This document shows positions 7,248 through 60,240 of a DNA stretch of 64,000 nucleotides, piece after piece (position 1 is the stretch's first letter; each line of letters opens with the position of its first letter). The notes beneath the pieces were generated by a model. The model saw only the letters and a list, made by a program, of their open reading frames with translations, was not told the DNA's origin and made no database searches. A program made the translations under genes and the position numbers. The stretch is from positions 434,001 through 498,000 of the forward strand of contig CANXME010001279.1 in the NCBI GenBank assembly GCA_948144175.1. Direction: 5' to 3'. Source of the stretch: Closterium sp. NIES-65 (lineage: Eukaryota; Streptophyta; Zygnematophyceae; Desmidiales; Closteriaceae).

Positions 7248-9353
7248 TCACTCGCACAATAAGAACTTGTTGAGAAGCATCACCCGTGGGTTGCTGAAAG
7301 AGCGGCAGATGTGCACTATCTGCTCGATGCTCTCCAGTGCAACCACAGCATGCCTGGTGTCCAACCGGGACGATGTGAGCTGCACGCATGTGGTGAGTGG
7401 GCAGACCCCCCCCTATTCATACCACCGCACGTACACAAACCCCCTCCGTTCCCCCTCAGCCGTAACTGCCTTAAAAATACAGAGCGCCTTGGCGTACCAC
7501 TCTTCCTTCATCTTGTTCGACTTCACAGCAAAGTCTGTGAACCAGTTCTCCTTGGGGCTTGCCTTGATGAACGCTCCCTTCGAGACAAGTGCTCCACCCT
7601 TTGTGCGTGGAATCGCCACCGCCGTGTGGGCCTGCATTGGTGGGGCAAGGGAAGACGAGGGTTTGCGTCTGATAAGTACGTGTCCTCAAGATGCATTCGC
7701 ACCCCGCATTACACAGCATCGCGAATATACCACACATGTCCACAGCCTAGGGCTTCACCTCACGTACCACAATCTCTGATGCCGTGATGTTCGCAGCCAC
7801 CATGCACCCAAGCAGCGAGTCCATGAGTTCTCCTAGCGCGGTACGGTAGGTGGACATCACAGCGTCGCCCTCCACCTCTGGTCGCATCGTTCGGCCCTTC
7901 CTCGTGAGCACGAGCTTCATCGTCTCCACCGCCTGCCGTGGTGGGCATGCAAGCGTATACAATGAGTACGACTGGCCCATGCACCGAGAACGCGGCGTGT
8001 CAAGTTGGCTCAGGTCAAAGTGCAAGAACAACAACACTGTGAAGCCCCCGACACACTGGCTCACCTCGCGCAGAGCTGTCGCATACTGACGCCCACCACC
8101 CGCGTCCTGTGCCACCTCCCTGTATATCTCTTTCTGCACCTCCTCCTCGAAGATCCGCCTGGGGATGTCCTTCCAGTTGCTGCCCCTGACCAGTATCTTG
8201 ACTGTCCCCTTGTGGGTATGCTCCCACATCTCCATGCTGTAGTGGTGCAGCATCCCGCGCATAATCACATTGTCCAGCAAGTGGACAATCATGTGAATCT
8301 TGGGAAAGCGACAGTTCGAGGCGTGGTCCGGGTAGGCCTGCGGCAAAATCTCCACCAGCCTATGGAGCAGCACATCGCACGAGGAGGATGGTGACTCCGT
8401 GCATGCCATGGCCAGACACTGCAACCAACCCCTATCGATGCATTCAGCGCCGCCCCCAACCCCCAAACCATATCCCCCAAGTCTCACCTACTTGATTGCA
8501 TGTGCACGTGCGAGTGCTAGAGAGGCCTCCGTGTGTCCGCTGACCCCCAGAAACGCCTTGTCGAACGTGGCATACATCCTGAACGCCCGGACGCGGAGCG
8601 CGGCCAGCTCCCCATCCTTTCCCTTCTGTAGCGCTGACTTGTCGGCCACTAGGATGGGCATCATCTGCATCATGCTGCGGTGTTCGAACGCTGCATAGTT
8701 TGCACCGCTCAGGAAGTAGGAGCTCCCTCCAGGCAGGCGCAACAGGACACTCGGGGTCTCTCCTTTGGTTGTCTTCTTGCGCCTGTTGGGATAGGGTGCT
8801 CGGGGATATGCACATAGACGAGATTGCGTGGAACACTAATCCCCAAGCCAACGCCAATGCATTCACCAAACGGTGTTTCCATTGCTTGCTTTCCTGTCTT
8901 ATGTCCGTATGCAGGAAACCCGAGCTACTCACCTCTCAACTTCTCGCCTCTCTGGCTTGCTTAGTACCGCGATGTGGTTCTCCAGCATGTGCAATGCCAT
9001 TCCCGAATCCAGCACATGCATGATGTCAGCAACGCAAGCACCAAACGGGTTTCCCCACGTCGTGTGTGAAAAGTTCCACCGCGATAACACGCACTGCATG
9101 GTGGGGTGTAAAGTATGTGAGGGGTTCTAGTCTTGGTGTGCAGCAGCGATCAACTGTGATTCCCGCGCCCAGCCCAAATACCACTAGACCCATATCTCCA
9201 CAGGATGGGTTGACCACTCGGTCAGTATCGCTTCCGCCTCTTTCACCGTCTTGCACGCAAGCATGTTGCGCAGCACATGCATCTCGGGGTCTACTGTCCG
9301 CGGCGTGGCCTAGTGCTCAAGGTCTCAAAGGAGCTCGTCCGGAACGTAGCATG

Positions 9354-9491
9354 TGTCAGAATCCCAACCACTAGACCATTGGGATAAAAGGGCTTGTTAA
9401 GTAGCGGGTCAGGGCGCCCATAACCCCCCAGGCCAACGTGCCTCTAACCCTTCCCTAGGATCAATCGGGGATCACCAGTGGACCTCTGACA
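9354..9491 (-). repeat. TRIM LTR 3
   Basis: 138-bp 3'-most LTR of the TRIM, abutting the GCATG target duplication. Confidence 0.85.
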
Positions 9492-9561
9492 CCCCTCCCG
9501 CACTGGGATGCCCGAAGTGCATACACCGGGATTCGAATCCGAGACCTTCGCTCTGATACCA

Positions 9562-9699
9562 TGTCAGAATCCCAACCACTAGACCATTGGGATAAAAGGG
9601 CTTGTTAAGTAGCGGGTCAGTGCGCCCATAACCCCCCAGGCCAGCATGTCTGTAACCCTTCCCTAGGATCAATCGGGGATCACCAGTGGACCTCTGACA
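9562..9699 (-). repeat. TRIM LTR 2
   Basis: 138-bp middle LTR of the TRIM, shared by the two tandem units. Confidence 0.85.
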
Positions 9700-9735
9700 C
9701 CCCCCCGCATTGGGATGCCCGAAGTGCACACATCG

Positions 9736-9793
9736 GGATTCGAACCCGAGACCTTCGCTCTGATGCCATGTCAGAATCCCAACCACTAGACCA
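9736..9793 (-). promoter_or_regulatory. tRNA-like split promoter (A box and B box) in TRIM
   Basis: On the minus strand an A-box match 'tggtctagtggtt' (9793-9781) lies near the LTR end. After 33 bp, past the primer site, comes a B-box match 'gggttcgaatcc' (9747-9736). Spacing and sequence are those of a tRNA-Glu/Asp-like internal RNA polymerase III promoter. The same pair recurs in the next unit. A TTTT run lies just before each A box, so a transcript begun in one LTR would end in the next after about 207 nt. The boxes are seen directly; polymerase III use is inferred. Confidence 0.55.
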
Positions 9794-9906
9794 TTGGGAT
9801 AAAAGGGCTTGTTAAGTAGCGGGCCTGTGCGCCCATAACCCCCCAGGCCAACGTGCCTGTAACCCTACACTAGGATCAATCTGGGATCACCACTGGACCT
9901 CTGACA
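9769..9906 (-). repeat. TRIM LTR 1
   Basis: 138 bp, TGTCAGA...TCTGACA in minus orientation. It is the 5'-most LTR of the TRIM and slightly more diverged from the other two than they are from each other. Confidence 0.85.
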
Positions 9907-11149
9907 GCATGCGCAGCATGGCCGCTTTGTGCCTATTTGCAGCGTCGCAGTGACTCTGCATTGTTTGATAAAGTCGTTAGGGTAACCAAAGAAGCATGGC
10001 ACGGCCTTAACCGGCTCACCGTTCGCGTCTGTGACATAGAAGACTCTCAAAGGCGCACTGCATGAGCCGACGTAAAGAGTAGGGGATTGACACCGTCTCT
10101 TTCCACCGCAACATCCAAACAAACGCTCCATATGGAGGGTACATGCAGCATGAAATGGCAGTCATACATACGTGGCGGACTCCCACATGAGTGGCGCCAG
10201 GATGATCCGAATTGCCTCTTGAAACACTCTAGCCTTCTCGGTAGATGTTACCCACTCGAGGGGGAAAGGCAGCACAACAGCCAGTGCGTGGCCACGTTCC
10301 ATCTTCCTCAGCTCTTCCGGTAAGTTGAGCAGCGTTATGAGGACGGGCCATGCCTGGCGGCACCCGTTGCGCGTGGCGTTGGTGCCATCGCTGTAGACAA
10401 TGACGCCAAGCACCCAGGCGGATGGGTCGTTCACGTCCTTCTGCTACACATTAGCTCAAGCTTAAGAGTGCAAATGGAGACACGCCAGCCCACCCGAGCA
10501 TTGCAGTATGTGATGTTTCTCGTACCTGAGCCTCTTCAAGCCATTTAGCAGTCCCAGGGTCGGTGTAAATACGCTCGTCGGTCTTGGGGTCCACCTCTGT
10601 TCGCGGTTTTGTGACGAACCCTTTAACTCCCGCAAAGATACGCACGATCTTCTTAACGATCTAGAAAGGCACAAGGCTACCTTAGAACACGCGTAATGAG
10701 AGTAAATGCGTGCTCCCAACAATCCCTAGACTGTGAAGGCAACTGGAGACATGGGCGTACCTCCTCCGTGTTCCGGTAGTGCAGCGGGAGCTTCTGAGTT
10801 TGACCGCGCGGACCTCTGACAACTATCTCCTCGCACAACCACGGGACCATGTCCGGGGGCGCCCTTGCTTCCCCCCATTGCCTCACGTCCAGCCAATTGC
10901 GCCACCGTCACAATGCACGCACGTTGAATCTCGGATTTTTGAAGATATGCAACAAGCGGTTGACTTCCCGGCGCGAGAGGTCCGAGTCTCCGATGAATAG
11001 ATATATCGCAGTGAGGGTGTCAAAGATCTCACCGCCCGAACTCTGCTCGCTACATGCAAAGTGATCGTCACCATCGCTATGCTCTACCTCGGCGGCTGTC
11101 GGATGACGCCACGCGGGTCCCGCAGGGGCGTTGCGAGGCACAGGAGCCG

Positions 11150-16699: not shown

Positions 16700-17932
16700 G
16701 AAGTAGATTAGCAGCGCAAACAGTAGGGTAAGGGCGGTGCGGAGAAAGAGGCGCTGCTCTTACCGGAGAGGGCGGCTCGAGCGAATGGGCGGTGCGGGCG
16801 GCTCGGCTGCTGGGCGGCTCGGCGCTGGGCGGCTCGGCTGCTGGGCGACTCGGCGGTGCGGGCGGCTCGGCTGCTGGGTGGCTCGGCTGCTAGGCGGCTT
16901 GGCTGCTGGGCGGCTCGGCTGCTGGGCGGCTCGGCTTCTGGGCGGCTCGGCGGCTCGGCGGCTGGGTGGCTCTGCAGCTCGGCTGCTGGGCGGCTGGGCT
17001 GCTCGGCGGTTTGGGTGCAGGGCTGCGCGGCTGCCGGCTGCTCGGCTGGGTATGGCGGCTGGGGCAGCTCGGGTGGCGGGCGGCGCTGCAGCAGGCGACG
17101 GGGCCGCAGGTAAGGGCGGCGGGGCCGCAGGTAAGGTGGCGGGGCTGCAGGTAAGGTGGCAGGGCCGCAGCGAAGGGCGGCAAGGCCGCAGGTAAGGTGG
17201 CAGGGCCGCAGGTAAGGTGGCGGGGCCGCAGCGAAGGGCGGCAGGGCCGTAGGTAAGGTGGCGGGGCCGCAGCGAAGGGCAGCGGGGCTGCAGGTAAGGT
17301 GGCGGGGCCGCAGGTAAGGTGGCGGGGCCGCAGCAGCAGGCGACGGGGCCACAGGTAAGGGCGACGGGGCCGTAGGTAAGGGCAGCGGGGCCGCAGTGAA
17401 GGGCGGCGGGGCCGTAGCAAGGTGGCGGGGCCGCAGCGAAGGGCGGCGGGGCCGCAGCAAGGTGACGGGGCCGCAGCGAAGGGCGGCGGGGCCGCGGTAA
17501 GGGCGGCGGGGCCGCAGGTAAGGGCGGCGGGGCCGCAGGTAAGGGCGGCGGGGCCGCAGGTAAGGGCGGCGGGGCTGCTAGTAGGGTGGCGCGCCCGCAG
17601 GTAGGTGGCAGGGCCGCGGGTGAGGGCGGCGCGAGGGGCCGCGGAGGTCGGCGGCGTGCCGTTACGGGCGGCGCAAGGGCGGCGACGGGCCGCTGAGGGT
17701 GGCGACGGGCCGAGTAGGGCGGCGTCAGGCCGCGAAGGGCGGCAGCGGGCCGAGTAAGGGCGGCGCGAGGGAGGCCGCTAGGGGCGACGCGACGGGGCCG
17801 AAGGAGGCCTAGGACGGGCGCGACGGTAGAGAGGGCACACGAGGCGCGACTCGGGCCTAAGCGAAGTGCGCTCCGGGCAGGAAAAAAAAAATTCGACTTG
17901 GTGGGCCCTAGGAACAGTTCCCACGAGGAAAC
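16700..17932 (-). repeat. element A GC-rich leader minisatellite
   Basis: Between gag and primer site lie many short GC-rich repeats: 'ggcggggccgcaggtaag' types and, nearer gag, 'gcggctcggctgctgg' types. Frames are open on both strands because of composition. I do not call proteins here. Confidence 0.85.
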
Positions 17933-20394: not shown

Positions 20395-21700
20395 ATGTAT
20401 GCTGTGACTATTAGTGAGGAGGGTGACTGTTACCGGTGTTTCCCGCCCGACCCGGGCATTGGTACTGCTGCGCTAGGTGCTTGTGAGGCTGCTGCTCTAG
20501 GTGCTAGTGCGTCTGCGCTCTCAGGTACTGGTGAGGCTGCGCTCCCAGGTACTGCGTCGGCTTCGGCCTCCCTCACTTTCACACTTGACTCAGGGGCTTC
20601 TCGCTCCTTCTTTCGAGACCGCACCAAACTCACGCCGCTTGGTCGGCCGGTTGCAGTCTCCCTGGCTGACCCCTCTGGGGGTCCTGTCCTCTCTCACTTC
20701 TCCACTGTCCTCCCGTGTCCGGCTGCCCCCTCGGGCACCCTGTCTGGTCTGTACCTCCCCTCGTTCTCGACGAACTTGGTGAGTGGTGCTGACCTACAGG
20801 ATATGGGGGTTCACCACTTTACTCCTGCGAATCAGCGGATGACCCACTGCACGGACGCACGCACAGGCCGGCACCTGGCCACGTTCTCGCGTCGGCCAGG
20901 GTCGAGCCTCTAAACCCTGACCACTAAGTCTCCTCCTGTCCCTGCGTCTGGCCAGGTAGCTGCGTCGGGTCAGGTGTTTGCTGCTGCGTCCCGGTCTGGT
21001 CCTGAGTCTGCCCCCTGTTCATGTTGCCTCCTGTCTCACGAGACTCTCTTGTGGCACCACCGTCTTGGCCACCCCTCCTTGCCTCGTCTTCGGGGCATGG
21101 CTTCCCGTGTCCTTGTCTCTGGTCTCCCCCAGTCTCTCCCTCCCCTTCCTTCGGGACCAATACCTTCCTGTGTCCCCTGTGTCGAGGGGCGCCTCCCGGC
21201 TGCTCCTCACTCCTCCCAGTTTCCCCCGACAGAGGCTCCTCTGCAGACACTTCACATGGACGTGTGGGGCCCGGCCCGCATCCGTGGGCAGGGTCACGAG
21301 CGCTACTTCGTGCTGGTGGTTGAGGACTACTCGCGTTACACCATAGTCTTCCCCTTGCGCAGCAAGGGTGATGTCACTGAGGTGCTGATCGACTGGATCC
21401 GCGCAGCTCGTCTCCAGCTCAGGAGGAGCTTCGGCTCGGACTTTCCTGTTCTGCGTCTGCACTCTGACCGAGGTGGGGAGTTCTCCTCTGGCCTTCTGCG
21501 GGCCTACTGTCGTGCACGGGGGGTTCGCCAGACCTTTACGCTTCCGGACTCTCCACAGCAAAATGGGATTGCTGAGCGCCGCATTGGCATGGTCATGGAC
21601 GTCGCTCGTACGTCCATGATGCATGCGGCTGCCCCCCATTTTCTGTGGCCGTTTGCGGTTCGGTACGCGGCGCATCAGCTCAACCTTCACCCCAGGGTCT
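20395..21700 (+). pseudogene. element B protease and integrase region
   Basis: Protease motif LDSGASRSFF near 20587. A GAG-pre-integrase zinc region with HHRLGHPS and CVPC follows, then an integrase core with MDVWGPA, VEDYSRYT, LHSDRGGEF and SPQQNGIAERRIG, the D-D-E pattern of copia integrases. Fossil. Confidence 0.85.
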
Positions 21701-22079
21701 CCCGGCCGGAGACCTCCCTAGCTCTGCTGTGGACAGGGAAGGTCGGCGATGCATCTGCGTTCCGTGTCTGGGGATCTCGGGCGTTTGTCCGCGACTTGTC
21801 TGCGGACAAGCTATCCCCTCGTGCTGCTCCCTGTGTCTTCCTGGGCTTCCCCCTTGACGCCCCAGGGTGGCAGTTCTACCACCCCTCCTCTCGCCGTGTT
21901 CTGTCCTCCCAGGACGTCACGTTCGACGAGTCGGTCCCCTTCTACCGCCTCTTCCCCCACCGCACTCCTTCTCTCCCGCCGCCGCCGCACTTCCTTGTGC
22001 CAGGTCCCCCCCCGGTAGATCCCCTTCCCCCTCAGGGTCCTGCCCCTTCAGGTGTGTCCCAGGTCGATGCAGTCCAGCC

Positions 22080-22390
22080 GGTCGAGGTTGCTGGTGACTC
22101 AGGTACTGCTAAGGGTGCTGAGCCTAGGGGTGCTGAGCCTGGGGGTGCTGACTCTGGGGGTGCTGAGTCTTGGGGTGCTGAGCCTGGGGGTGTTGAGCCT
22201 GGAGGTGCTGAGCCTAGGGGTGCTGCCTCTGGGGGTGCTGAGCCTGGGGGTGCTGACTCTGAGAGTGCTGCGCGCGTGGGTGCTGAGCCTGGGGGTGCTG
22301 AGCCTGGGGGTACTGCGCCTAGGGGTGCTGAGCCTGGGGGTGCTGTGTCTGGAGCTGCTGAGCCTGGAGGTGTGGAGCCTGCGGCCACTG
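22080..22390 (+). repeat. element B 15-bp minisatellite in pol linker
   Basis: Tandem 15-bp units such as 'gagcctgggggtgct' encode a Gly-Gly-Ala-Glu-Pro-like pentapeptide repeat between integrase and RT. The same repeat lies in the linkers of E (about 30090-30250), F (about 34100-34330) and G (about 51040-51210). Confidence 0.85.
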
Positions 22391-23419
22391 GACCTCCCCT
22401 TGTGGCGCGTGGCGGTACTGGACCTGGAGGTTCTCCGGGTGTTTCGTCTCGGCGGGAGCCACTCTCTCCACAGGAGCTGCGTGAGTGTTTTGCTCGCCGA
22501 TGGAGGCCTACTGCTGGAGCTGGCGCTTCTTCGGCCGCTGAGGGTGCTGGTGCCGCCGGTCCCGGAGCTGCTGGGCCTGCGGGTCCGCCTGGAGCTGGAG
22601 CTGCTGAGGGTGTTGGTTTTGAGACTACTACTGTACGTCCTAGTGGTGGTCTTGCTGCGGGTGCTACTAGCGCTGCTGGAGGTCGTGCTGCTGGAGGTGC
22701 TGTTGGCGCTGGTGCTGCCGGAGGTGCTGAGGATGCTGGTGCTGTCCCTGCTGTGTCTGGTGCCGCCGCGCGGCCTCGGCCGTACTTCGTTCCTCTCCTT
22801 CAGCAGGTTCTTGGTCTTCCTCCTCTCTTAGAGGGTCCACCGCCTGTCCAGTCGCAGTCGCAGTTACCGCCGGCCTCCCCACTGCCTTCTCCCTCTCCCT
22901 ACACTGGTCCTACTGGAGGTCTTGCTGAGCATCGTGAGCCTGCGTCTCGTCCTGCGTCGCCTGTTCGTGCTGCTCGCACTAGTGGTCGCAGTTCGCGTCA
23001 GCGTCCTTCTCCTGTCCCTGGCATGCACCGGATGTCTCTACGTCCGTCCACTGCTCCTCTGCGTGCCCCTCTGCCCTCTCCTCCTGAGTCCTCTCTTCCT
23101 GCGCTTGCCGACCCTGAGTCGGACTCTCTTCGTGCTGCCAGTCCTACTGTCACGCGTCTCCTTGCTACTGTCGTCACTGACCCCTCCTTTGAGTCCACTA
23201 CTGCGTCTGCTCTTGTTGCTGAGCTCGTGGACTTTGCTGCTCGCTGTCGTCTAGACTACGCTGCCAGTCTTGTTGCTGAGTCTGCGTCTGTCTGTCCTCC
23301 GTCCGTCGGGGGTGAGTGTGCCTTTGGCACAAACGTCCTTGAGGACAGGCAGGAGGAGTTTCAGTGTCTGGCTGCTGCTTCACCTCATCTCGCGTCTGTA
23401 CTGCTTGCCCCTGAGGGAG

Positions 23420-25016
23420 ACCCGGATGCACTAGACATCCCGACTCCGCGCTCTTACGCGGAGGCCGTAGAGGGTCCCTACTCCTCTCAGTGGCAGGCAG
23501 CTATGGATGCAGAGATGGCTTCCTGGAAGTCCACAGGCACCTACGTTGACGCGGTTCCCCCTCCTGGGGCGAACATCGTCAGTGGCATGTGGATCTTCAG
23601 GGTGAAGCGGCCGCCGGGCTCTCCACCTGTCTTCAAGGCACGGTACGTTGCTCGTGGCTTCAGTCAGCGGCAGGGAGTTGACTACTTTCAGACCTTCTCT
23701 CCCACCCCGAAGATGACCACTCTTCGGGTGCTGCTGCACATAGCCGCTCAGCACGACTACGAGCTCCACTCTCTTGACTTCAGCACTGCTTTCTTGTAGG
23801 GTAGCCTGCACGAGGAGATCTGGCTGCGCCGTCCACCTGGCTTCACTGGGACTTTCCCTCCTGGCACCCAGTGGAGCCTCCGACGGCCAGTCTACGGTCT
23901 CCGCCAGGCACCGCGTGAGTGGCACGACACACTGAGGACTACGCTCGCGGCTCTTGGGTTTGCTCCCTCTACTGCTGACCCGTCGTTGTTTCTGCGCACC
24001 GACACTTCTCTGCCGCCGTTCTACATCCTCGTGTACGTCGACGACTTGGTCTTTGCCACAGCGGACACTGCTGGACTCGCCTACGTGAATTCCGAGCTGC
24101 AGAAGAGACACACGTGCACAGACCTGGGTGAACTGCGCAGCTACCTTGGCTTGCAGATCACTCGGGACAGAGCACGCCGCACCATTACCTTGACTCAGTC
24201 ACACATGGTGCAGCAGGTCCTTCAGCGCTTCGGCTTCACGTACTCCTCGCCTCAGGCCACTCCTCTGTCTACTCGCCACTCGCTCTAAGCTCTGCCTTCG
24301 GATGAGTCCGTAGAGTCGAGTGGCCCGTACCCAGAGCTTGTTGGCTGCCTCATGTACCTGATGACCTGCACACGACCTGACCTTGCATACCCTCTTAGCA
24401 TCTTGGCACGCTATGTTGCTCCTGGGAGACACCGACCAGAGCACATGGCTGCAGCGAAGAGGGTGTTGCGCTACTTGTGCAGTACGTTGGGCATAGGGCT
24501 AGTGCTTGGAGGGCGGAGTCCAGTGGTCCTCACTGGGCACGCGGACGCTTCTTGGGCTGACGACCAGGCTACGCAGCGGTCGTCGCAGGGTTACACCTTC
24601 AGTCTTGGTTCTGGCTCTGTTTCGTGGCGGGCTACTCGCTCGTCTTCTGTTCTCGGCTCCAGTTGTGAGGCTGAGATCTACGCCGGGGCCATGGCTTCTC
24701 AGGAGCTTCGCTGGCTCACCTACCTGCTGACTGACCTTGGAGAGCCGCCTCGTTCTTCTTTAGTGCTGTACGTAGACAACAAGGCCATGCTGGCCTTGTG
24801 TCGAGAGCAGCGCCTGGAGCACAGAACGAAGCACATTGCTCTCCGCTACTTTCTTGCTCGTGAGCTGCAGCAGCGTGGTCAGTTGCGACTTGCGTACGTG
24901 GCCTCTGAGGCCAACACTGCTGATGTTTTCACCAAGGCACTTCTGCCTTGTGATCATCAGCGCTTCTGCACTCAGCTGGGACTTGTACCTGTCTTACCTC
25001 ACTTGCTCACCTCCTG
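23420..25016 (+). pseudogene. element B RT and RNase H region
   Basis: Copia RT with GMWIFRVKRPPG, LDFSTAFL and YVDDLVFATA, then RNase H with SSCEAEIYAG, YVDNKAML and HIALRYFLARE. A purine-rich 'ctatgggggtg' lies before the 3' LTR. Fossil. Confidence 0.85.
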
Positions 25017-29109: not shown

Positions 29110-31315
29110 AGTCTAGACGATAATGAGCAGCGAAGTCGACAAGCTCAGCAAGTAAGGCAAACGCAGTAGTGGACTCAAAGGAAGGGTCAGTGACAATAGT
29201 AGCCAGTAGACACATGACAGTAGGAGTGGCAGCACGAAGGGAGTCAGACTTCGGGTCAGCAAGAGCAGGAAGAGAGGACGCATGAGGAGACGGCAAAGGG
29301 ACACCCAGTGGAGCAATGGAAGGACGCAATGCCATCTGGTGCGTGCCTTGGACCGCAGGAGGACGCTGGCGTGGAACACGACGACTAGTGCGACCAGCAC
29401 GAACATGTGACGCAGGACGAGACTCAGGCTCACGACGCTCAACAAGACCGCCAGTAGGACCAGTGTAGGGAGGAGGAGCAGGCAGTGGGGAGGCGAGCTG
29501 TAACTGTGACTCGGACTGGACAGGCGGCGGACACTCTAAGGAAGGAGCAGGACCAGTAGAAGGCGGGAGACTAAGAACCTGCTGAAGCACCAGTAGGAGC
29601 GGAACGAAGTACGGCCGCGGCCGCGCAGCGCCTTCAGAATTAGCAGGGACAGCACCAGCACCCCCAGCGTCAGCACCAACGCCAGTAGCACCACCAGCTC
29701 CAACAGCACCCCCAGTAGCTCCAGCAGCGCCAACTCCAGCACCCCCAGAAGCACCAGCTCTAGCAGCACCTCCAGCGCCAACACCCCCAGCGGCTCCAGC
29801 TCCAGCCGGACCACCGGAAGACTCAACAGCCCCAGCTCTAGCACCTCCAGCAGCACCTGCTCTAGAAGCACCGCCAGCTCCAGCACCAGGAGCATCCCCA
29901 GGCCCAGCAGCTCCAGTACCTCCAGTACGAGCACCTTCGGGACCCGTGGCACCAACACCCGCAGCAGCAGCACCTCCAGCTCCAGCAGCACGGCTCCAGC
30001 GCCGCGCAAACCACTCACGCAGCTCTTGTGGAGAGGGTAGCTCCTGCCGAGACGAAGCACCCAAAGGACCCCCAGACCCAGCACCACCAGATGCCACACG
30101 AGCAGACCCAGCACCCTCAGGCTCTGCACCCCCAGGCTTTGCACCCCCAGGCGCAGCACCCCCAGCCTCCGCACCCCCAGACTCAGCACCCCGAGACTCA
30201 GCACCCCCAGGCTCAGCACCCCCAGAACCCGCATCTGCAAGCTCAGTACCCCTAGCAGCACCAGAGTCAACAGCTACCTCGACAGGCTCGACTGCGTCTA
30301 CCTGGGACACACCTGACGGGGCAGGACCCTGAGGAGGGAGAGGGTCTACCGGGGGGGGGGACCTGGCGCGAGGAAGAGCGGCGGCGGGTGGAGGGGCGCA
30401 GTGCGGTAGGGGAAGAGACGGTAATAAGGAACCGAATCGTCAAAGGTGACGTCCTGGGAGGAAAGAACACGGCGCGAGGTGGGGTGGTAAAACTGCCAAC
30501 CAGGCGCGTCAAGGGGGAAGCCAAGGAAGACGCAGGGAACAGCACGGGGGGACAGCTTGTCCGCAGACAAGTCGCGGACAAACGACCAAATCCCCAGACA
30601 CGAAACGCAGACGCATCGCCAACCTTCCCCGTCCACCGCAAGGTGGGGTAAGTCTCTAGCAAGGAGACCCGGGGCTGACGGTTGATCTGATGCGCTGCGT
30701 ACCGAACCACAAACGGCCACAGAAAATGGGGAGCACCCGCATGGATCATGTACGTACGAGCGACGTCCATGACCATGCCAATGCGACGCTCAGCAATCCC
30801 TTTTTGCTGTGGAGAGGCCGGAAGCGTGAACGTCTGGCGGATGCCCTGTGCACGACAGAAGGCTCCGAGAAGGCCAGAGGAAAACTCTTCGCCTCTGTCA
30901 TAGTGCAGACGCCGAAACTCTCTCTGAGCTGGAGACGAGCTGCGCGGATCCAGTCGATCAACACCTCAGTGACATCACCCTTGCTGTGCAAGGGGAACAC
31001 CGTGGTGTAACGCGAGTAGTCGTCAACCACCAACAGGAAGTAACGCTTGTGACCCTGGCCACGGGCGCGGGCGGGGCCCCACACGTCCATGTGAAGAGTC
31101 TGCAGTGGAGCCTCTGTCGGATGAAACTCAGAGGAGTGAGGAGCAGTGCGCTGCCGCCCCTCGACGCAGGGATCGCAGGTAGGGGCAGGCCCCGGAGGAA
31201 GGGGAGGGAGGGACCGGGGGAGACGTAAGACAAGGTAACGGGAGGCCATGCCTCGGAGACGAGGCAGGGAGGGGTGACCAAGGCGGTGGTGCCAGAGGAG
31301 AGTCTGGTGGGTCAA
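29110..31315 (-). pseudogene. E integrase and linker region
   Basis: Integrase blocks HHRLGHPS, MDVWGPA and VDDYSRYTT (about 30900-31300), then the Gly-Ala-Glu-Pro-rich linker with 15-bp repeats. Fossil, broken. Confidence 0.75.
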
Positions 31316-33125
31316 GAGACGACACGAGCAGGGAGCAGACCTGGACCTGACCTGGACGGTGCAGCAAACACCTGACCCGATGCAGCTACCTGACCAGACT
31401 CAGCAACCTGAGGAGACGCAGTAGTAAGTGTGTACAGGCTCGACCCCGGCTGATGGGTAAACGTGGCCAAGTGTCGGCCCGTCCGAGCACACGTACAGTG
31501 GGTCACTCGCTGACTCGCAGGAGTGAACTGGTCAACCCCCCCATCCTGTAGATCAGCACCAGTCACCAAGTTCGTAGAGAACGAGGGGAGATAGAGACCT
31601 GACAGGGTGCCAGAGGGGGCCGCCGGACACGGTAGGATAGTGGAGAAGTGTGCAAGGACAGGACCCCAAGAGGGGTCCGCGAGGGAGACCGCAACCGGCC
31701 GACTAAGCAGCGTAAGCGTGGTGCGGTCTCGAAAAAAGGAGCGGGAAGCACCCGAGTCAAGGGTGAAGGTGTGTAAGGCCTGAGCCGACGTGGTACCTGA
31801 GAGAGCAGACGCACCAACACCTGGGACAGCAGACGCACTAGCACCTAGAGCAGCAGCGTCACCAGCACCTAGAGCAGCAGCCTCAATGCCCGGGTCAGGC
31901 GGAACACACAGGTAACAGTCACCCTCATCACTAGTAGATACAACATACATGGCAGCAAGAATAGCATCATAATCCAGATCAAAGATAGCAACCCCCGACC
32001 TAAGCAGCTCGCCCCAGCGGGGGATCTCAGTGGCGTGAGGGAACTGGAGACGCGAAGCGTCCGTCAGGCGGCCAAAGTAGCGCTGGGTGGTGTGCGGGCC
32101 ACCGCACGGCTCACCAGTGCGGTCGCCGGTAAGCAGGACGTAGGTACAAGGACCAGCACCCCCACCCCGCTGACGCGCAGCGTACCACTCACGAAGCTGC
32201 TGGGGGGGTGGGGTCTCACGAGTGCGCTGTTGCTGCTGGCCTTGACCGCCACCGAAGCCGCCCCGCTGCGCAGAGCCAACCCGACCAGCTCCACCTCCGC
32301 CGCCGCCACCTCCACCACCGCCGCCACCGCCTCCTCCTCGGCTCCCACCGCCACCTCCGCCGCCGCCTCCGCCTCCACCGCTGCCACCGAAGCCCCCACC
32401 CCCGCCACCACTCCCACCGCCACCCCCACTCCCGCTGCCGCCTCCACCGCCACCTCCACCTCCCCCGCCAGCCCCTCCAGCGCCCTTGCCCCCCTTGCCC
32501 TTGCCGGTGCGGCGTCGCTCGCTAGGGGCAGACGCAGCGCCGACCGACTCGGTGCCAACGAAGTTGAGGACAGTAGCAGAGGCAACAAAGGGCAAAAGGG
32601 GGGAGGGGGAGCACCCCTCAAAGAAGGGGGCACGAGGGTCACCACGAGAGGCTCCTACACCGACTATACTCTTCTCAGCTGCCAGGAGGCGCTCCTCGAG
32701 GAGGTCAACGGTGAGTGTGGTGGGGCAAACAGAGAGGAAGTGGTCCCTGACCGAGAGAAGGGAGTCAGGGAGCCGGGTGACTATGTAGTAGAGGGTGATG
32801 TACATGGGGGGGGGGGGGTTCTTGGCGCAGAACTCAGCAGAAAGCGCAGCGCAGTAGCGGGTGTCACTAGTGCGAAGGTGCGTAATGAGGTCAGTGACTG
32901 TGGGAAAGGCGGCGAGGTCAGGGAACAGGTATGGCAGCATGAGGCGGCTAAGGGCAGCAGTGGCAGGGGAAGAGTAGCGTGCGACTACAGCGTCGTACAA
33001 GGTCTTAGCACTCTTGTACTGACTAAAGTGCGCGCGCTCAGAGGACGGGAAGTGACTATGCACAGCAAGACAGGCAGCAGCATCGCGTGTGGCCCACTGT
33101 GAGCGAACAGTGCTGTCAGCATCGA
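31316..33125 (-). pseudogene. E (second) gag and protease region of the chimera
   Basis: Gag core (FSQYKSAKTLYDAVVARYSS, YYIVTRLPDSL), poly-glycine tract (about 32280-32490), Cys/His-like box (about 32080-32170) and protease motif LDSGASRSFF (about 31730). It lies downstream of a complete F-type integrase, so one element holds two gag/protease sets. Fossil. Confidence 0.8.
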
Positions 33126-35770
33126 CAGTAGGACTGGCAGCACGAAGAGAGTCCGACCCCGGGTCGCGAAGAGCATGAAGAGAGGACTCAGGAGGAGAAG
33201 GCAAAGGTGCACGAAGAGGAGTAGTGGACGGACGCAGAGACATCCGGTGCGTGCCAGGGACAGGAGGAGGACGCTGACGTGAACCGCAACCACTAGTGCA
33301 AGCAGTACGGACAGGCAACGCAGGGCGAGACGTAGGCTCACGACGCTCAGCAAGACCTCCAGTAGGACCAGTGTAGGGAGAAGGAGCAAGCAGTGGGGAG
33401 GCGGGCTGTAACTGTAACTGTGACTGGACAGGCTGTGGACACTCTAAGGGAGGAGGAGGACCGAGAGAAGGCGGGAGACCAAGAACCTGCTGAAGGAGCG
33501 GAAAGAAGTACGGCCGCTGCCGTGCAGCGACTCCAGAACCAGCAGAGACACCAGCGTCAGGGTCCTCCGCACCAGCAGCAGCTCCAACGCCCGACTCCAC
33601 AGCACTAGCAGCAGCACCAGCTCCAGGGTCCTCAACACCAGCTGTTGCTCCAACGCCCGGGTCCTCAGTACCAGCAGCAGCTCCAACGCCCGGGTCCTCA
33701 GCACCAGCAGCAGCACCAGCGCCCGGGTCCGCAGCACCGGCCGTAGCTCCAACGCCCGGGTCCGCAGCACCAGAAACAGCTCCAACCTCAGGGGCAGCAG
33801 CAATAGCAGAACCAGTAGAGTCTCCAGCACCAGTAGCACCACCAGCAGCAGCGGGGTCCGCGACACCAGGCGCGCCACTCCGAAGAGTGCAGCGCCACTC
33901 GTACCACTCACGGATCCGCTCACGGGAGGGGAGCTCCCGGCTAGGAGGAGAAGCACTAGCACCAGTCCCAGTAGTAAACCTGGCTTCAGAGGTACCTCTC
34001 CTGAGGCTGCAGTACTGGAAGTACCACTCACGCAGCTGCTCCGAGGAGAGGGCTCCGCCAGGTGAAGGACCCTCAGGCTCAGGACCTCCAGACTCAGAAC
34101 CCCCAGACTTCAGACTCTGCAGCTTAGCACTCCGAGGCTCAGTACTCCCAGGCTCACCACCCCCAGGCTCCGCACCCCAAGGCTCAGTACCCCCAGGCTC
34201 CGCACCCCCAGGCTCGGCACCCCCAGGCTCCGCACCCCCAGGCTCCGCACCCCCAGGCTCCGCACCCCCAGGCTCCGCACCCCCAGGCTCCGCACCCCAA
34301 GGCTCAGCACCCCCAGGCTCCGCACCCACAGCAGGACGAGAGTCGATAGCTGCCTCAACAGGCTCAACCGGGTCTACCTGAGACACACCTGAGGGAGCGG
34401 CACCCTGAGGGGGGAAGGGGTCTATGACAGCAGCACCTGGCGCAAGGAAGAGAGGCGGGGGGGGGAGCGCGGGAGTGCGGTAGGGGAAGAGGCGGTAGTA
34501 GGGGACGGACTCGTCAAAAGTGACGTCCTGAGAGGGCAAGACTCGGCGTGAGGTGGCGTGGTAAAACTGCCAACCAGGCGCGTCCGGGACAAAGCCGAGG
34601 AAGACGTAGGGAACAGCATGGGAGGAGAGCTTGTCCGCAGACGTATCGCGGACAAAAGCTCGAGATCCCCAGACCCGGAAACGCGACGCATCGCCAACCT
34701 CCCCCGTCCACAGCAGTGTGGGCGAGGTCTCCGAGAAGGAGACATGGGGCCAGAGGTTGAGCTGATGCGCAGCGTACCGGACCGCAAACGACCACAGAAA
34801 GTGGGGGGCAGCCGCATGGATCAAGGAGGTACGGGCGACCTCCATGAGCAGGCCAATGCGGCGCTCCGCAACCCCATTCTGCTGTGGTGAGGCCGGAAGC
34901 GTGAACGACTGCTCAATGCCGTGTTCAGCACAGTAGGCTGCCAAGAGGTCGGAGGAGAACTCACCACCTCTGTCAGAGTGCAAGCGCATGACAGGAAAGT
35001 CCGAGTGGAAACGCTCGCTGAGCTGGAGACGGGCAATGCGGATCCAAGGGATCAAGACATCAGGGACCTCACCCTTGGTGCGCAAGGGGAAGACCGTGGT
35101 GTAGCGCGAGTAGTCGTCAACAACTATCAGGAAGTACCTCTCCTGACCCTGACCACGGACGCGGGCTGGGCCCCACACGTCCATGTGGAGCGTCTGCAAG
35201 GGAGCAGTCGTCGGGGGAAACGAGGAGGAGTGAGGAGCGGCGCGCTGCTGCCCCTCGACGCAGGGAAGACAGGGAGGAGCAGGCGAGGGTGGGAGGGGAG
35301 GGAGGATCCTGGGAAGACCGGAGACAAGGTACCGGGAGTGCATGGCACGAAGGCGCTGCACAGACGGGTGGCCAAGTCGGTGGTGCCAGAGGACAGTCTC
35401 GTGCGCCAGAGAGCAACACGAGCAGGGGGCAGACAGTTGACCTGACGCGGACGCAGACGCAGACGCAACGACCTGAGGGGACTCAGTGGTCAGTGTGTAC
35501 AGGCCCGACCCCGGCTGCCGAGTGAAGGTAGCCAAGTGGCGGCCCGTACGAGCACACGTGCAGTGTGTCACGCGCTCGTAGGCAGGGGTGAACTGGTGAA
35601 CACCCCTGTCCTGGAGTGCACTACCTGCCACCAAGTTCGTAGAGAACGAGGGGAGGTGGAGACCTGACAGTGTGCCCGACGGGACCACAGGACAGGGAAG
35701 GACAGTGGAGGAGGTCGAAATGACCGGACCCCCAGAGGGGTCAGCGAGGGAGACAGCAACTGGCCAAGCA
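33126..35770 (-). pseudogene. F integrase and linker region
   Basis: HHRLGHPSVQ, MDVWGPARV, VVDDYSRYTT, LHSDRGGEFS and SPQQNGVAERR mark the integrase (about 34700-35420). The linker has GGAEP-type repeats (about 34100-34330) and a second repetitive 'GAEDPGVGA' stretch (about 33550-33790). Most similar to element G. Confidence 0.8.
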
Positions 35771-36150
35771 AGCAGGAAAGAGGCTAAGTCCGGGAACAGG
35801 TAGGGAAGAGAGAGACGGCCTAGTGCGGCAGAGGCCGGTGAGGAGTAGCAGGCAACGACAGCAGTGTACAGTGCCTGTGCAGTCTTGTGCTGCCCAAAGT
35901 GCTTGCGCTCATCTATCGGCAGGGAGTTGCGAATAGCAAAGCGAGCGTGGGCGTCACGATTCTGCCACTGTGAGTGGGCAGTGCTGTCATTAGTAGCAGC
36001 AGGAGCAGGAGCATGGCCTAGGGCGTGATCGTGCAATGAGATGTCCTCCTTGGCAGTGAGCTAAAGGAAGAGGTGTAGGTCATCTAGCCAGGTTTCGAAC
36101 TTCACTGGGCGGCCCTCAGCATCGAAAGCTAGTACAGGAGGGATAGCCAT
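35770..36150 (-). pseudogene. F gag portion
   Basis: FDAEGRPVKFETWLDDLHLF and HDHALGHAPAP identify the same Gag type as element G. Only part of Gag is present. Fossil. Confidence 0.7.
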
Positions 36151-36930: not shown

Positions 36931-37656
36931 CGCTGGGTGTAAAGTAAAGTCCAGCCACATGTTGTCCAGCGCGCAACGGCGACTGGGGACCAATCACATG
37001 AGACGATTTCACCAACAATTTTGATAACGCAGAGTTAGCCAACAAGAGAACACTTCAAAGATGACGTGTTCTCATACAAGACCAGCACAATATTGAGATG
37101 ACGTGCAACAGCAATGCGTTGGAAGGACAAATCACGTCTCTCCGCTGCTTCCAAAAGGTGAACAGTACATGCGATACAATTTGACGTTCCGATACTAACC
37201 TCTATTGCATTGCAAACCAACTTCTTGTTCCCATAAGTATCACAAATTGTTACAATCATATGCGATTTTATCCTTGTGGACACGATTTTCTCCAAGAACG
37301 TTAACATATTTCACTTTCATTTTCTGCTAGTGATTTCCTACGTTGTAAAAAAATGTCTTAATCAATCAAAATCATACTACACGAGGAAGATAAAAGGTCA
37401 TTATTGGTTTTCATATGCCACTATTTTCTTGAACGTAAAATACATAACTTCTTGTGGTATCTATGGCCACCTAATTATACGACAAGTACTAACATTTATA
37501 TGGTGACAACCCATATTTTAATATGGAAGGATATGTGTGGACGATCTGTATTGTTGATAATTTTGCAGCATCATGCCTATTACTTGTCATCAGGATCATC
37601 GAAACAATAATGTATGTCATGCATGACTATCCATGTATATATTTCCCTACTCAATT
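36931..37656. other. AT-rich spacer, no recognised gene
   Basis: AT-rich DNA between two LTR elements. A 90-codon minus-strand frame (37307-37035) has ordinary amino-acid composition but no motif I recognise, so I do not call it. Confidence 0.5.
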
Positions 37657-37837
37657 TGTGAAAATGAGCGGTAGGATTAGGAGCCATAGCTAGGAAAGCC
37701 CTAGCTAGGCAAGAGACAGTTTAGGCAAAAGAGGAGGATTGCACTAGCAAGAATGAGGATACAAATAGCAAACCCTAGAAGGGTTGTACTCGCTATAGAG
37801 CACCCCACTACAGGCTAGAGCATAACATTCTGAGACA
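37657..37837 (-). repeat. element K 3' LTR
   Basis: 181 bp; polypurine-tract complement 'cccccatagccaaagtgggg' follows at its right edge. Confidence 0.85.
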
Positions 37838-38955
37838 CCCCCATAGCCAAAGTGGGGTGTAATTAGCAGAGCAAGCAAAGCAGTACAAGCTCAGGGTGGA
37901 TCACAATGTCACCACACATTCTGAGCACAAGTTCAAGAAGCAATAGTTTAAAGTTCACAATTATGAGCAAAGCTAGTGGTAGTCACAACGGGCAAGTGAG
38001 GAGGAGGATGGACAGTGAGAGGAGAGGAGATAGGAGGCGACGGCTGAAGCTGCAGACACACGGGCAACAGGAGGCACACTGGCACAGCGGCTACCGGAAC
38101 AACGCTCCGGACTACTGGAGTAACTGGCCCCGCGGCTAAAAGTAGCGGCAGACGAGCAACGGACCCACGGGCGACTGGTACAGGTGGCTGCAACTGGGCT
38201 ACCGGAGCAACTCCCCGGACTACAGGTGCTGCTGGCGACACGACGGCAACCTCCGTTCAGCTTCCCAAACAGTACCCACCCCCCTGACACACACCCCCTG
38301 CTTCACCCGTAGCTCCACTCCCCCTTCACCCCCCCTTAGTACCACTCCGACGGCTCCAACAGGTCCACCCCCCCTCAGCGGCAGCTGCATCACAGGGAGA
38401 CGGAGGAGGAGGAGGAGCAGGGAACGGCACACAAAAGCTGCACCCCCATACCCCTCACCCCCAAACCCTAATCCAGGAGACGGGCAGAAGGAGGGGTGGG
38501 GCGCCTTCAGAAGCACGGGGGACAGCGGGGAGGGCAGTGGCAGCAAAGAACGGGCCGCCCACGGGCCTGGCACAGCCTCCCGAGCCGCGCGCAGGCGGCC
38601 CGAGCCGCGCGCGGGCCTGGCGCAGCCCGTACGGGCCGCGCGCAGCCTGTACGGGCCGCGCGCAGGCCACGACGGGCGACGGGGGGCGACGCACGGGTCC
38701 CCGTCGCCCGTCGCAGCGCCTCTTGGGGGCGACGCGCCGAGTGACGGGGCAGAAACCCGTCGCGCGCCTCGGGGCGCACGGCGGGCAGCAAACCGCCGCG
38801 CGCCTCGGGGCGCACGGCGGGCAGGGCGCACGGCGGGCTGAAAACCCTAATTTCGACGCCGCGCACCACGGGGCGCGCGACAGACAGGGAGTAGCAGTAG
38901 CAGCGGAAGCAGTGAGGTGGGGCCCACAGGCCAGGAGCATATCGCTCTAATACCA

Positions 38956-39134
38956 TGTGAAAATGAGCGGTAGGATTAGGAGCCATAGCTAGGAAAGCCC
39001 TAGCTAGGCAAGAGACAGTTTAGGCAAAAGAGGAGGATTGCACTAGCAAGAATGAGGATACAAAGAGCAAACCCTAGAAGGGTTGTACTCGCTATAGAGC
39101 ACCCCACTACAGGCTAGAGCATATCATTCTAACA
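38956..39134 (-). repeat. element K 5' LTR
   Basis: 179 bp, near-identical to the left LTR apart from a 2-bp length difference and a few substitutions. Confidence 0.85.
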
Positions 39135-39677
39135 CAATTGTTTGCAACAGCACAACTTCTTATGTGGTGCGAATTGTTTGTCCTTGCCGTCGCGGTGTAC
39201 TTGTCAAGTTAAAGGTCGCTGACCTTTGACCTTCGCGTAACCTCTAGCAGTTGTTTTTTTTGTCAACCTCTGGTGGTTGACTCACCGTTGTTTATTTGTA
39301 GTTCGCCTTGTTTGTGGTTTGGTGTCATGACACACAAGAAGCGTTTAATCAGTTGTTTCCTACAACAAGAAGGCGTTGAAATGACAACATGTCTAGCTCA
39401 TGCCTATCCTTGCACAATTTTCCCAATTCAATTGTTTAAAACATTATATCTTCATATCACGAGGTGCGAATGGTACCAAACTTGTCTAGCATGCTTGCAA
39501 CGTACTAAACGTTTGTAGTATCAAAAGAAACCCAGCTAGAAATAACTATAAGATGTCTAAACGAAACCGCATAAAGCTGAGACCTATCCTTGCACAGTTG
39601 TCCCTGCTCAATCGTTTTGAACATCATATCTTCCCAGTGCGTAGTGCGAATGGCACCAAACTTGTCTAGCATGTTTG
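39135..39677. repeat. spacer with a diverged 180-bp tandem duplication
   Basis: The block near 39395-39498 recurs near 39575-39677: 'cctatccttgcaca' ... 'gcgaatgg.accaaacttg' ... 'tctagcatg'. The two copies are diverged. No gene is recognised. Confidence 0.7.
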
Positions 39678-51399: not shown

Positions 51400-53110
51400 A
51401 GGTGACGTCCTAAGAGGGCAAGACTCGGCGCGAGGTGGCGTGGTAAAACTGCCAACCAGGCGCGTCCGGGACAAAGCCGAGGAAGACGTAGGGAACAGCA
51501 CGGGAGGAGAGCTTGTCCGTAGACGTATCGCGGACAAAAGCTCGAGATCCCCAGACCCGGAAACGCGACGCATCGCCAACCTCCCCCGTCCACAGCAGTG
51601 TGGGCGAGGTCTCCGAGAAGGAGACACGGGGCCAGAGGTTGAGCTGATGCGCAGCTACCGGACTGCAAACGGCCACAGAAAGTGGGGGGCAGCCGCATGG
51701 ATCAAGGAGGTACGGGCGACCTCCATGAGCAGGCCAATGCGGCGCTCTGCAATCCTATTCTGCTCTGGAGAGGCCGGAAGCGTGAACGACTGCTCAATGC
51801 CATGCTCAGCACAGTAGGCTGCCAAGAGGTCGGAGGAGAACTCACCACCTCTGTCAGAGTGCAAGCGCAGGACAGGAAAGTCCGAGTGGAAACGCTCGCT
51901 GAGCTGGAGACAGGCTCTGCGTATCCAAGGGATCAGGACATCAGGGACCTCACCCTTGGTGCGCAAGGGGAAGACCGTGGTGTAGCGCGAGTAGTCGTCA
52001 ACAACTATCAGGAAGTACCTCTCCTGACCCTGACCACGGACGCGGGCTGGGCCCCACACGTCCATGTGGAGCGTCTGCAAGGGAGCAGTCGTCGGGGGAA
52101 ACGAGGAGGAGTGAGGAGCGGGGCGCTGCCGCCCCTCGATGCAGGGAAGATAGGGAGGAGCAGGCGAGGGTGGGAGGGAAGGGAGGACTCTTGGAAGACC
52201 GGAGACAAGGTACCGGGAGTGCATGGCACGAAGGCGCTGCACAGACGGGTGGCCAAGTCGGTGGTGCCAGAGGACAGTCTCGTGCGCCAGAGAGCGACAC
52301 AAGCAGGGGGGAGACAGCTGACCTGACGCGGACGCAGACGCAGACGCAGCAACTTGAGGGGACTCAGTGGTCAGTGTGTACAGGTCCGACCCTGGCTGCC
52401 GAGTGAAGGTAGCCAAGTGGCGGCCCGTACGAGCACACGTACAGTGTGTCACGCGCTCGTAGGCAGGGGTGAACTGGTGAACACCCCCGTCCTGGAGTGC
52501 ACTACCTGCCACCAGGTTCGTAGAGAACGAGGGGAGGTGGAGACCTGACAGTGTGCCCGACGGGACCGCAGGACAGGGAAGGACAGTGGAGGAGGTCGCA
52601 ATGACCGGACCCCCAGAGGGGTCAGCGAGGGAGACAGCAACTGGCAGAGCAAGCGGCTCAAGGGCAGTGCGGTCACAAAAGAAGCAGCGAGAAGCACCTG
52701 AGTCTAGTGTGAAGGTGTGCACTGCTGCCGTCGACTCAGTACCAGGGGGGGCAGACGCACAAGCACCTAGAGCAGCCGCCTCACCAGCATCTGGGGTAGC
52801 AGACACGCGAGTACCTGGAGCGGCAGACACACTAGTCCTAATGCCCGGGTCGGGCGGCACACACAGGTACTCAGCACTCTCTCCACTAGTAGACATCACA
52901 TACATAGCAGTGAGAATAGCATCAAAGTCTAGAGCATAGATATCAATCCCCTTCTTCAGGAGATCAACCCAGCGGGGCAGCTTTGTGGCCTGAGGGAACT
53001 GAACACACCAAGCGTCGTTGAGACGAGCGAAGCAGCGCTGTGTGGTGTGCGGTTCCCCACACGGCTGACCAGTGCAGTCACCAGTGCGAATGACGTACGT
53101 GCAGCTAAAG
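51400..53110 (-). pseudogene. element G protease and integrase region
   Basis: Protease LDSGASRCFF (about 52680), then HHRLGHPSVQRLRAM, MDVWGPARVRGQG, VVDDYSRYTT, LHSDRGGEFSSD and AERRIGLLMEV (about 51720-52290). Fossil. Confidence 0.85.
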
Positions 53111-54203
53111 CCACCCCCCCCCCCCCGTGCTGAGAGTACCACTCACGGACCTCCTGGGGCGATGGAGTGAGCTGCTGGCTCTGGCCACCGCCAGCGCCTC
53201 CACGACCACCACCACCGCCGCCACCTCCTCGACCACCCCAACCTCCGCCGCCGCCGCGTCCACCGCCACCCCCACCACCGCCTCCGCCCCTGCCACCTAC
53301 CCCGCCACTGCCGCCACCACCCCCACCGCTGCCACTAGCCCCTCCAGTCGCGCCACCACCCCCACCGCCGCCACCGCCCCCACCACCGCCTCCCCCGCTG
53401 TCACCGCCACCGCCCTTGCCCCCTTTGCCCTTGCCGCTACGGCGCCCGCTCGAAGCAGACGCAGTCCCAACCTTCTCAGCACGAAGGAGGTTGACAGCAG
53501 CAGCAGAGGCGACAGAGGGAAGAAGGGGGGAAGGAGAGCACCCCTCAAAGAACGGGGTACGGGGGTCGCCACGAGAGCCACCTACAGCGACTATGCTAGC
53601 CTCAGCTGCAAGGAGTTCCTTCTTGAGGAGGGCAATGGTGAGTTCAGTGGGGCAGCGAGCTAGGAAGTGGTCCCTGACTGAGCGGAGAGTGTCAGGGAGG
53701 CGGGTGACTAGGTGGTAGAGAGTGAGCCAGAGTGGGGGTGGGTTCTTGGCAAGGAACTCATTAGGCATGGCGGCGCGGAAGCAAGCCTCACTAGAGCGGA
53801 GGTGCGTAATGAGGTCAGCGACTGTGTGCAAAGAGGCTAAGTCGGGGAACAGGTAGGGAAGAGAGAGACGGCCTAGTGCGGCAGAGGCCGGTGAGGAGTA
53901 GCAGGCAACGACAGCAGTGTACAGTGCCTGTGCAGTCTTGTGCTGCCCAAAGTGCTTGCGCTCATCTATCGGCACGGAGTTGCGAATAGCGAAGCGAGCG
54001 TGGGCGTCACGAGTCTGCCACTGTGAGCGCGCAGTGCTGTCAGCAGTAGCAGCAGGAGCAGGAGCATGGCCTAGGGCGTGATCGTACAGTGAGATGTCCT
54101 CCTTGGCAGTGAGCTGTAGGAAGAGGTGTAGGTCATCTAGCCAGGTTTCGAACTTCACTGGGCGGCCCTCAGCATCGAAAGCTACCACTGGAGGGCTAGC
54201 CAT
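53010..54203 (-). pseudogene. element G gag
   Basis: MASPPVVAFDAEGRPVKFE at 54203. Gag core with HFGQHKTAQALYTAVVACYS and YHLVTRLPDTLRSV, poly-glycine tract (about 53180-53410), and a Cys/His box that can also be read as C-x4-C-x3-H-x4-C. Same Gag type as F and distinct from A, B, D and E. Fossil. Confidence 0.8.
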
Positions 54204-60108: not shown

Positions 60109-60240
60109 TGTGAAAACAAAGAACGAGAATGAAATGACTATGAACGAAGTGAGTACAAATAGGAAACCCTAATTGGGTTGTACCCCCTATGGGATACCCC
60201 ACTATAGCCTACAGAAACAAGTAAGCTATAAGTTCTGACA
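60109..60240 (-). repeat. element H 3' LTR
   Basis: 132 bp, identical to 63427-63558. Confidence 0.9.

Follow-up and report, generated by a model that had tools for sequence, protein, structure and literature searches.

Organization of the element at positions 9354-9906

The window, that is, the whole stretch of 64,000 nucleotides that was analyzed, contains near its left end a short tandem repeat that Tandem Repeats Finder reported as 2.7 copies of a 207-bp unit spanning exactly 9354-9906. A BLAST chain resolved this interval on the minus strand into an LTR-interior-LTR-interior-LTR arrangement with LTRs of 138 bp and interiors of 69 and 70 bp. The LTRs have TG...CA ends, with the sequence TGTCAGAG...TCTGACA in the window element, and both here and in sampled genomic copies a polypurine tract of the GCGGGGGGG type directly abuts the TGTCAG of the 3' LTR. 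The parts of the element are listed below in its own 5' to 3' order, with the basis of each assignment in brackets.

9907..9911, target-site duplication GCATG, right copy (sequence)
9769..9906, minus strand, LTR 1, the 5' LTR, TGTCAGAG...TCTGACA (BLAST chain)
9700..9768, minus strand, interior 1, with primer site, B box and polypurine tract (BLAST chain)
9757..9768, minus strand, primer-binding site 1, TGGCATCAGAGC, one mismatch to the 3' end of the host initiator tRNA-Met (sequence)
9700..9708, minus strand, polypurine tract before LTR 2, GCGGGGGGG (sequence)
9562..9699, minus strand, LTR 2, the middle, shared LTR (BLAST chain)
9492..9561, minus strand, interior 2 (69 bp aligned plus one base before the LTR)
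9550..9561, minus strand, primer-binding site 2, TGGTATCAGAGC, with complementarity of up to 14 nt (TGGTATCAGAGCGA) (sequence)
9492..9501, minus strand, polypurine tract before LTR 3, GCGGGAGGGG (sequence)
9354..9491, minus strand, LTR 3, the 3' LTR (BLAST chain)
9349..9353, target-site duplication GCATG, left copy (sequence)

A sequence-only reading of this DNA had described a miniature LTR element with a primer site, and the LTR chain, the TG...CA ends, the GCATG duplication and the polypurine tract confirm that description. The longest ORF within the element, of 104 aa, runs through the repeats at 9472-9786, and a single 345-bp copy is, judged by its length, too short for a reverse transcriptase or integrase and thus without mobility genes. 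By these sequence features the window element is a TRIM, a non-autonomous miniature LTR retrotransposon, in a three-LTR tandem form.

The window also holds a second small LTR element of ~1.48 kb at 37657-39134 on the minus strand, with 181-nt direct repeats that are 98% identical; by eye, it has a primer site TGGTATTAGAGC (38955-38944, minus strand) and a CAATT duplication at 37652-37656 and 39135-39139. Among the ORFs at 20974-23799, 58239-60113 and 60438-63338, two carry Copia-type domains (RVT_2) and one carries Gypsy-type domains, and the first of these Copia-type ORFs also has an integrase core and a GAG-pre-integrase domain. The ORFs at 31312-36036 and 51655-54203 resemble the 20974-23799 ORF by eye. 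A minisatellite at 1278-2945 was reported by Tandem Repeats Finder as ~12.6 copies of a 132-bp unit with 88% matches.

Polymerase III-type boxes at the LTR/interior junction

The element carries sequences resembling a tRNA-type RNA polymerase III (Pol III) promoter on the same strand as its LTRs. Their positions are as follows.

9809..9811, minus strand, CAA in LTR 1, proposed transcription start, which would give R = AAGCCCTTTT (sequence)
9801..9804, minus strand, TTTT in LTR 1, putative Pol III terminator (sequence; spacing genome-wide)
9781..9793, minus strand, A box TGGTCTAGTGGTT in LTR 1 (sequence and pattern match)
9736..9746, minus strand, B box GGTTCGAATCC in interior 1, perfect (pattern match)
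9594..9597, minus strand, TTTT in LTR 2, putative Pol III terminator (sequence; spacing genome-wide)
9574..9586, minus strand, A box TGGTCTAGTGGTT in LTR 2 (sequence)
9529..9539, minus strand, B box GATTCGAATCC in interior 2, one mismatch (sequence)
9386..9389, minus strand, TTTT in LTR 3, putative Pol III terminator (sequence; spacing genome-wide)
9366..9378, minus strand, A box TGGTCTAGTGGTT in LTR 3; LTR 3 has no B box after it because no interior follows (sequence)

The 13-mer A box is common to all three LTRs and TTTT lies 7 bp upstream of it in each, as expected from the earlier description of a T run just before every A box. That description had also given each unit a good A box and a good B box 33 bp apart. 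The A box is indeed present in all LTRs, but the B box is perfect only in interior 1 and the measured gap is 34 bp. The A-box consensus by itself matches 13 places in the window and is therefore weak evidence, whereas the B-box consensus has a single exact match. An A...B pair 20-60 bp apart occurs once in the window and in 0 of 200 first-order Markov copies of it.

Copies in the genome and marks of insertion

The genome searched comprises 874 Mb, and 40 of 244 candidates were scored and 30 matches fetched. Over the unit, identity in these 30 was 95-100%. In the genome the element usually takes the form LTR-interior-LTR, with a length of ~345 bp, and three-LTR and four-LTR tandems are also present. 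Of the 30 best matches, 27 lie between exact 5-bp duplications, or 24 of 27 after setting aside three rows that duplicate the flanks of another row. Two pairs of loci share nearly identical flanks (L001/L002 and L016/L017); the assembly therefore seems to hold duplicate haplotypes, by which copy counts are inflated. With counts read in this way, the genome search with the LTR that the sequence-only reading had proposed gave thousands of copies, a mid-LTR 18-mer being found at 7,577 places. The A-box 20-mer was found at 7,815 places genome-wide and a pattern of A plus B box with the second B base free at 1,734, each against 0 for the reversed control, and primer site plus B box at 2,646 places. 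No blastn match to the element was obtained in plasmids, and a 32-base pattern running from A box to primer site had no exact match in viral contigs or prokaryote genome contigs.

A second sample consisted of 60 stretches, corresponding to the first 87 of 100 listed places of the mid-LTR 18-mer. It comprised 38 two-LTR, 3 three-LTR and 19 one-LTR loci, some of the last arising from the edges of the fetched stretches. Exact adjacent 5-bp duplications were present in 33 of the 60 loci, 8 of these being solo LTRs; among the 27 remaining, several differ at one base and some are cut by the fetched stretch. Two subfamilies were seen among the copies, with units of 207 and 235 bp; the differences between them lie in U3 and the 3' half of the interior. 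In one 235-type interior (L034, ~1570-1800) a solo-LTR-like insert of another family (TGTCAGAA...TTTTGACA) was seen, with a 5-bp duplication TGCAC and a resulting unit of 464 bp.

An A box, a B box, a length of ~207 nt and a terminal TTTT are also SINE-like, and the element might accordingly be a tRNA-derived SINE in tandem arrays, with the LTR reading a mere effect of the frame chosen. The insertion ends, however, are the TG...CA ends of the LTRs and not the start of the A box or the T run, the 5-bp duplications are constant and also flank solo LTRs, and the element has both a polypurine tract and a primer site of 13-14 nt. We consider a SINE extremely improbable and rejected it on the grounds that the insertion ends and duplications contradict it. 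By these marks, the insertions look like the work of an LTR-retrotransposon integrase and not of the SINE type.

Primer site and initiator tRNA

Genes for the host initiator tRNA-Met were located at 29 places, and all five that were read (L081-L085) were called tRNA-Met by ARAGORN. They end ...CTCGCTCTGATA (longer form ...CCTCGCTCTGATA), and the complement of this 3' end with CCA added is TGGTATCAGAGCGAGG. The gap-free match of the primer site is 14 nt in unit 2 of the window and 13 nt in 235-type copies (TGGTATCAGAGCGGTC...). The sequence TGGTATCAGAGC occurs at 17,425 places genome-wide versus 8 for the reversed control, so the initiator-tRNA primer is widely used and LTR elements primed by it are very common in this genome.

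The specificity of the promoter boxes was examined at the first 30 TGGTATCAGAGC sites in contig order. Both boxes are present at 2 of the 30, and these two are copies of this TRIM. The 28 others have no A box between 70 bp before and 10 bp after the start of the primer site and no B box in the 80 bp that follow it, although at least 11 of them are copies of one family, so that the independent families are fewer than 28. Because these non-TRIM primer sites lack the two boxes, the boxes are not a by-product of having a primer site.

A related possibility is that an extension of the primer site accounts for the B-box-like stretch, which would then be complementary to the nearly self-complementary T arm of the primer tRNA. 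The complement of the initiator tRNA-Met, ...GCGAGGTTTCGATCCTCGG, does contain a B-like GGTTTCGATCC, but gap-free complementarity ends at 13-14 nt and an offset of 5-8 nt with several gaps would be needed to reach it. In addition, AGGTCTCGGGTTCGAATCCCGG reads as the variable loop and T arm of a tRNA in the sense orientation, which counts against this origin, and the A box would be left unexplained. We regard it as improbable, and an extended primer site was rejected as the source of the B box for its poor fit to the tRNA complement.

Likeness to tRNA and predicted folds

An Rfam search with 4,227 families, in which the tRNA model has a gathering score of 29 bits, ranked the tRNA model first in window 9300-9950 (21.2 bits, E = 0.088), with the match running from the leader to beyond the B box. 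It also ranked first in two genomic copies searched alone, L109 (15.9 bits, E = 2.5) and L097 (16.4 bits, E = 1.5); all three scores lie below the gathering score, and those of L109 and L097, taken singly, are at chance level. A pooled search of 20 loci gave no tRNA match up to E = 10, and 5S rRNA was absent among the four Rfam matches up to E = 10 in 9300-9950. An intact tRNA gene in the window was rejected, as ARAGORN finds none.

The minimum-energy folds of both window blocks and of L109 contain a D-side hairpin and a 5-bp/7-nt hairpin formed by the LTR end and the primer site. The latter, for example TCTGA-CATGGTA-TCAGA, appears in three of the four LTR-plus-interior blocks folded, L097 being different. 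A T arm of 5 bp and 7 nt is also predicted in the first window unit and in L109. The fold energy from A to B box in the two window units is no better than that of dinucleotide shuffles (z 0.12 and 0.34). We take the A-box region to resemble tRNA-Glu. One pattern was used to look for a tRNA or SINE of the host that could have donated both boxes, and in each of its 14 matches sequence resembling the primer site of the TRIM separates A from B. We read the anticodon region of a tRNA-derived promoter as now holding the LTR/primer-site junction.

Conservation of the boxes

The layout described by the sequence-only reading, with an A box near the LTR end and a B box beyond the primer site, recurs across the genome and in two subfamilies, and the spacing of TTTT, A box and B box, which it had proposed to compare across copies, is kept in both. 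Genome-wide, TTTT lies exactly 7 bp upstream at 7,283 of the 7,815 A-box 20-mers, against 6,992 for the adjacent control word GCCC. When the 207- and 235-bp subfamilies were compared using 19 sampled units each, the block bounded by the CAA and the B box, with TTTT, A box, LTR end and primer site between them, showed 0 substitutions over 75 aligned positions, with a 3-bp gap between the primer site and the B box, while the rest of the unit showed 10 substitutions over 128 aligned positions and one gap. As evidence for the boxes, this block is weakened because the primer site, which is kept for other reasons, lies inside it.

A second base in at least four copies was seen in 19 of 442 columns (7 of 207 and 12 of 235). 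Two of these columns fall within the stretch from CAA to the B box, namely column 137 of the 207 unit, at the LTR end, and B-box position 8 in the 235 group, where 12 of 19 copies have A and 7 have T. No other position of either box has a second base in at least four copies, and this one corresponds to the free N of GGTTCGANTCC, the B-box consensus. One widespread box variant proves little, because about two would be expected in 44 box columns at the overall rate, and its occurrence at the free position alone is suggestive at most.

Within each subfamily, a perfect A and B box are kept in 11 of 20 (207) and 16 of 18 (235) sampled units. In the 207 unit, 140 of 196 11-base windows are kept at least as well as the A box and 36 of 196 at least as well as the B box; the corresponding figures in the 235 unit are 28 of 224 and 127 of 224. 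In the sampled copies of either subfamily, conservation of the boxes thus does not clearly exceed that of the remaining unit. Such decay is what dead copies would show, and the argument from conservation therefore rests on the two subfamilies. The sampled units carry the CAA in 19 of 20 and 15 of 18 cases, 36 of 38 contain exactly one T4 run, and no TATA[A/T] occurs in the most frequent bases of the 207 or 235 unit.

These data bear on whether the element is instead an ordinary Pol II TRIM whose A and B boxes are an unused remnant of a captured tRNA or SINE fragment, copied passively. The decay of the boxes at about the same rate as the rest in sampled copies and the weak tRNA-model scores would fit this explanation, and the accessible part of PMC10853983 treats the other TRIMs known as transcribed by Pol II. 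The order and spacing of the boxes and the TTTT are nevertheless kept in both subfamilies, the most frequent bases of either unit lack TATA[A/T], and the sole widespread box variant falls at a free B-box position. On balance, we find a Pol II element with idle boxes unlikely, and the element is probably a TRIM transcribed by Pol III from a tRNA-type promoter that straddles the LTR/primer-site junction.

Proposed transcription and mobilization

In the Pol III model, the two parts of a tRNA-derived type-2 promoter would be an A box within the U5 end of the 5' LTR and, beyond the primer site, a B box belonging to the interior, and Pol III with TFIIIC would bind the two boxes across 34 bp, which is a normal A-to-B box distance. 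Because such a promoter straddles the junction, it would be whole only where a 5' LTR joins an interior. More tentatively, and as a possibility somewhat short of even, the LTR end and primer site may have replaced the anticodon arm of a tRNA-like sequence, leaving a promoter that is complete only at 5' LTR plus interior, solo and 3' LTRs that are silent, and a primer tRNA that binds within a tRNA-like fold.

Transcription would begin a short way upstream of the A box, the best guess being the CAA 9-11 bp before the tRNA-like +1; CAA is a plant Pol III start motif. It would terminate at the TTTT of the following LTR and yield an RNA of ~210 nt with a short R repeat AAGCCCUUUU. The sequence-only reading had proposed a transcript covering exactly one unit, but reverse transcription of LTR elements needs repeated RNA ends. 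A start at the tRNA-like +1 would have the TTTT upstream of it and leave no R repeat, which counts against the model, whereas the proposed start at the CAA would provide an R region of 10 nt. Among the flanks of the initiator-tRNA genes, three of which are distinct among the five loci, two have exactly four T just downstream and the third, as printed, has none; by this comparison T4 may be sufficient as a terminator in the host.

Initiator tRNA-Met would then prime at TGGTATCAGAGC, and the reverse transcriptase and integrase would come from a helper, most likely a Copia LTR element, with integration producing the 5-bp duplications. We take 5-bp duplications together with initiator-tRNA priming to fit Copia. 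Four of the primer-site loci (L073, L074, L076 and L077) encode protein that is 61-65% identical, over the matched stretches, to the window ORF 52956-54203, which we interpret as a Copia Gag because Copia-like ORFs lie next to it. A chimera was found at 1890-2260 of L046 (contig C10, ~184 kb), in which a TRIM interior and LTR are flanked by other LTR-element sequence. At its joins, the LTR end of another family meets the primer site and a second primer site leads into the interior of another element, and the foreign sequence on the left side of the chimera shares, in part, 91-92% identity with the repeats of the window element at 37657-39134. This single case suggests, from the positions of the joins, template switching between RNAs packaged together in a shared particle.

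If the model is true, transcription would be tied to an intact 5' end, solo and 3' LTRs would be silent and the RNA would be one unit long. The thousands of copies would then offer a good natural system for asking how LTR-type reverse transcription is completed on a Pol III RNA whose ends hardly repeat, and whether LTR elements driven by Pol III have arisen more than once from pieces of tRNA.

Comparison with known elements

Among elements with a Pol III promoter, tRNA-derived SINEs share the A and B boxes and the terminal T run. They are mobilized by LINEs and are not known to have LTRs, a primer site or a constant 5-bp duplication.

The TRIM/SMART elements, including the tandem TA-TRIMs (Gao 2016, PMC4717578), are in the accessible text likewise small, with LTRs, without mobility genes and with L3I2 tandems, L3I2 being the most frequent tandem TRIM in maize. 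The same source reports TRIMs in Chlamydomonas, Volvox and Chondrus, and the term 'Polymerase III' is absent from its main text. Cassandra is likewise a TRIM with a Pol III promoter (a predicted one here), an LTR-to-LTR transcript with an 18-bp terminal repeat (accessible part of PMC10886601) and three-LTR tandems (accessible part of PMC7215508). It differs in having a 5S rRNA promoter inside the LTR, not a tRNA-type one, and a length of 565-860 bp.

The earlier suggestion that a tRNA-type counterpart of Cassandra would perhaps be new is not borne out, since Helenus, the tRNA-type TRIMp3, was published in 2024 (Kojima 2024, PMC10886601) and comprises TRIMs with tRNA-derived sequence in the LTR. 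According to the accessible part of that paper, Helenus is similarly an LTR element that lacks mobility genes and has a primer site, a polypurine tract and boxes A and B like those of a tRNA. Its fungal and plant families make 5-bp duplications, the number of LTRs can reach thousands and one family forms tandem arrays; its size is 311-1263 bp compared with 345 bp here, and in plants it is reported there only from Selaginella. Both boxes of Helenus lie in the LTR, whereas in the present element only the A box does, the B box being located in the interior beyond the primer site. A promoter split in this way was not found described in open-licence literature, including the accessible parts of PMC10886601, PMC7215508, PMC10853983 and PMC12477816. 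The tRNA-type Pol III TRIM is thus a kind known since 2024, and the split between LTR and interior looks new as far as the open-licence literature shows.
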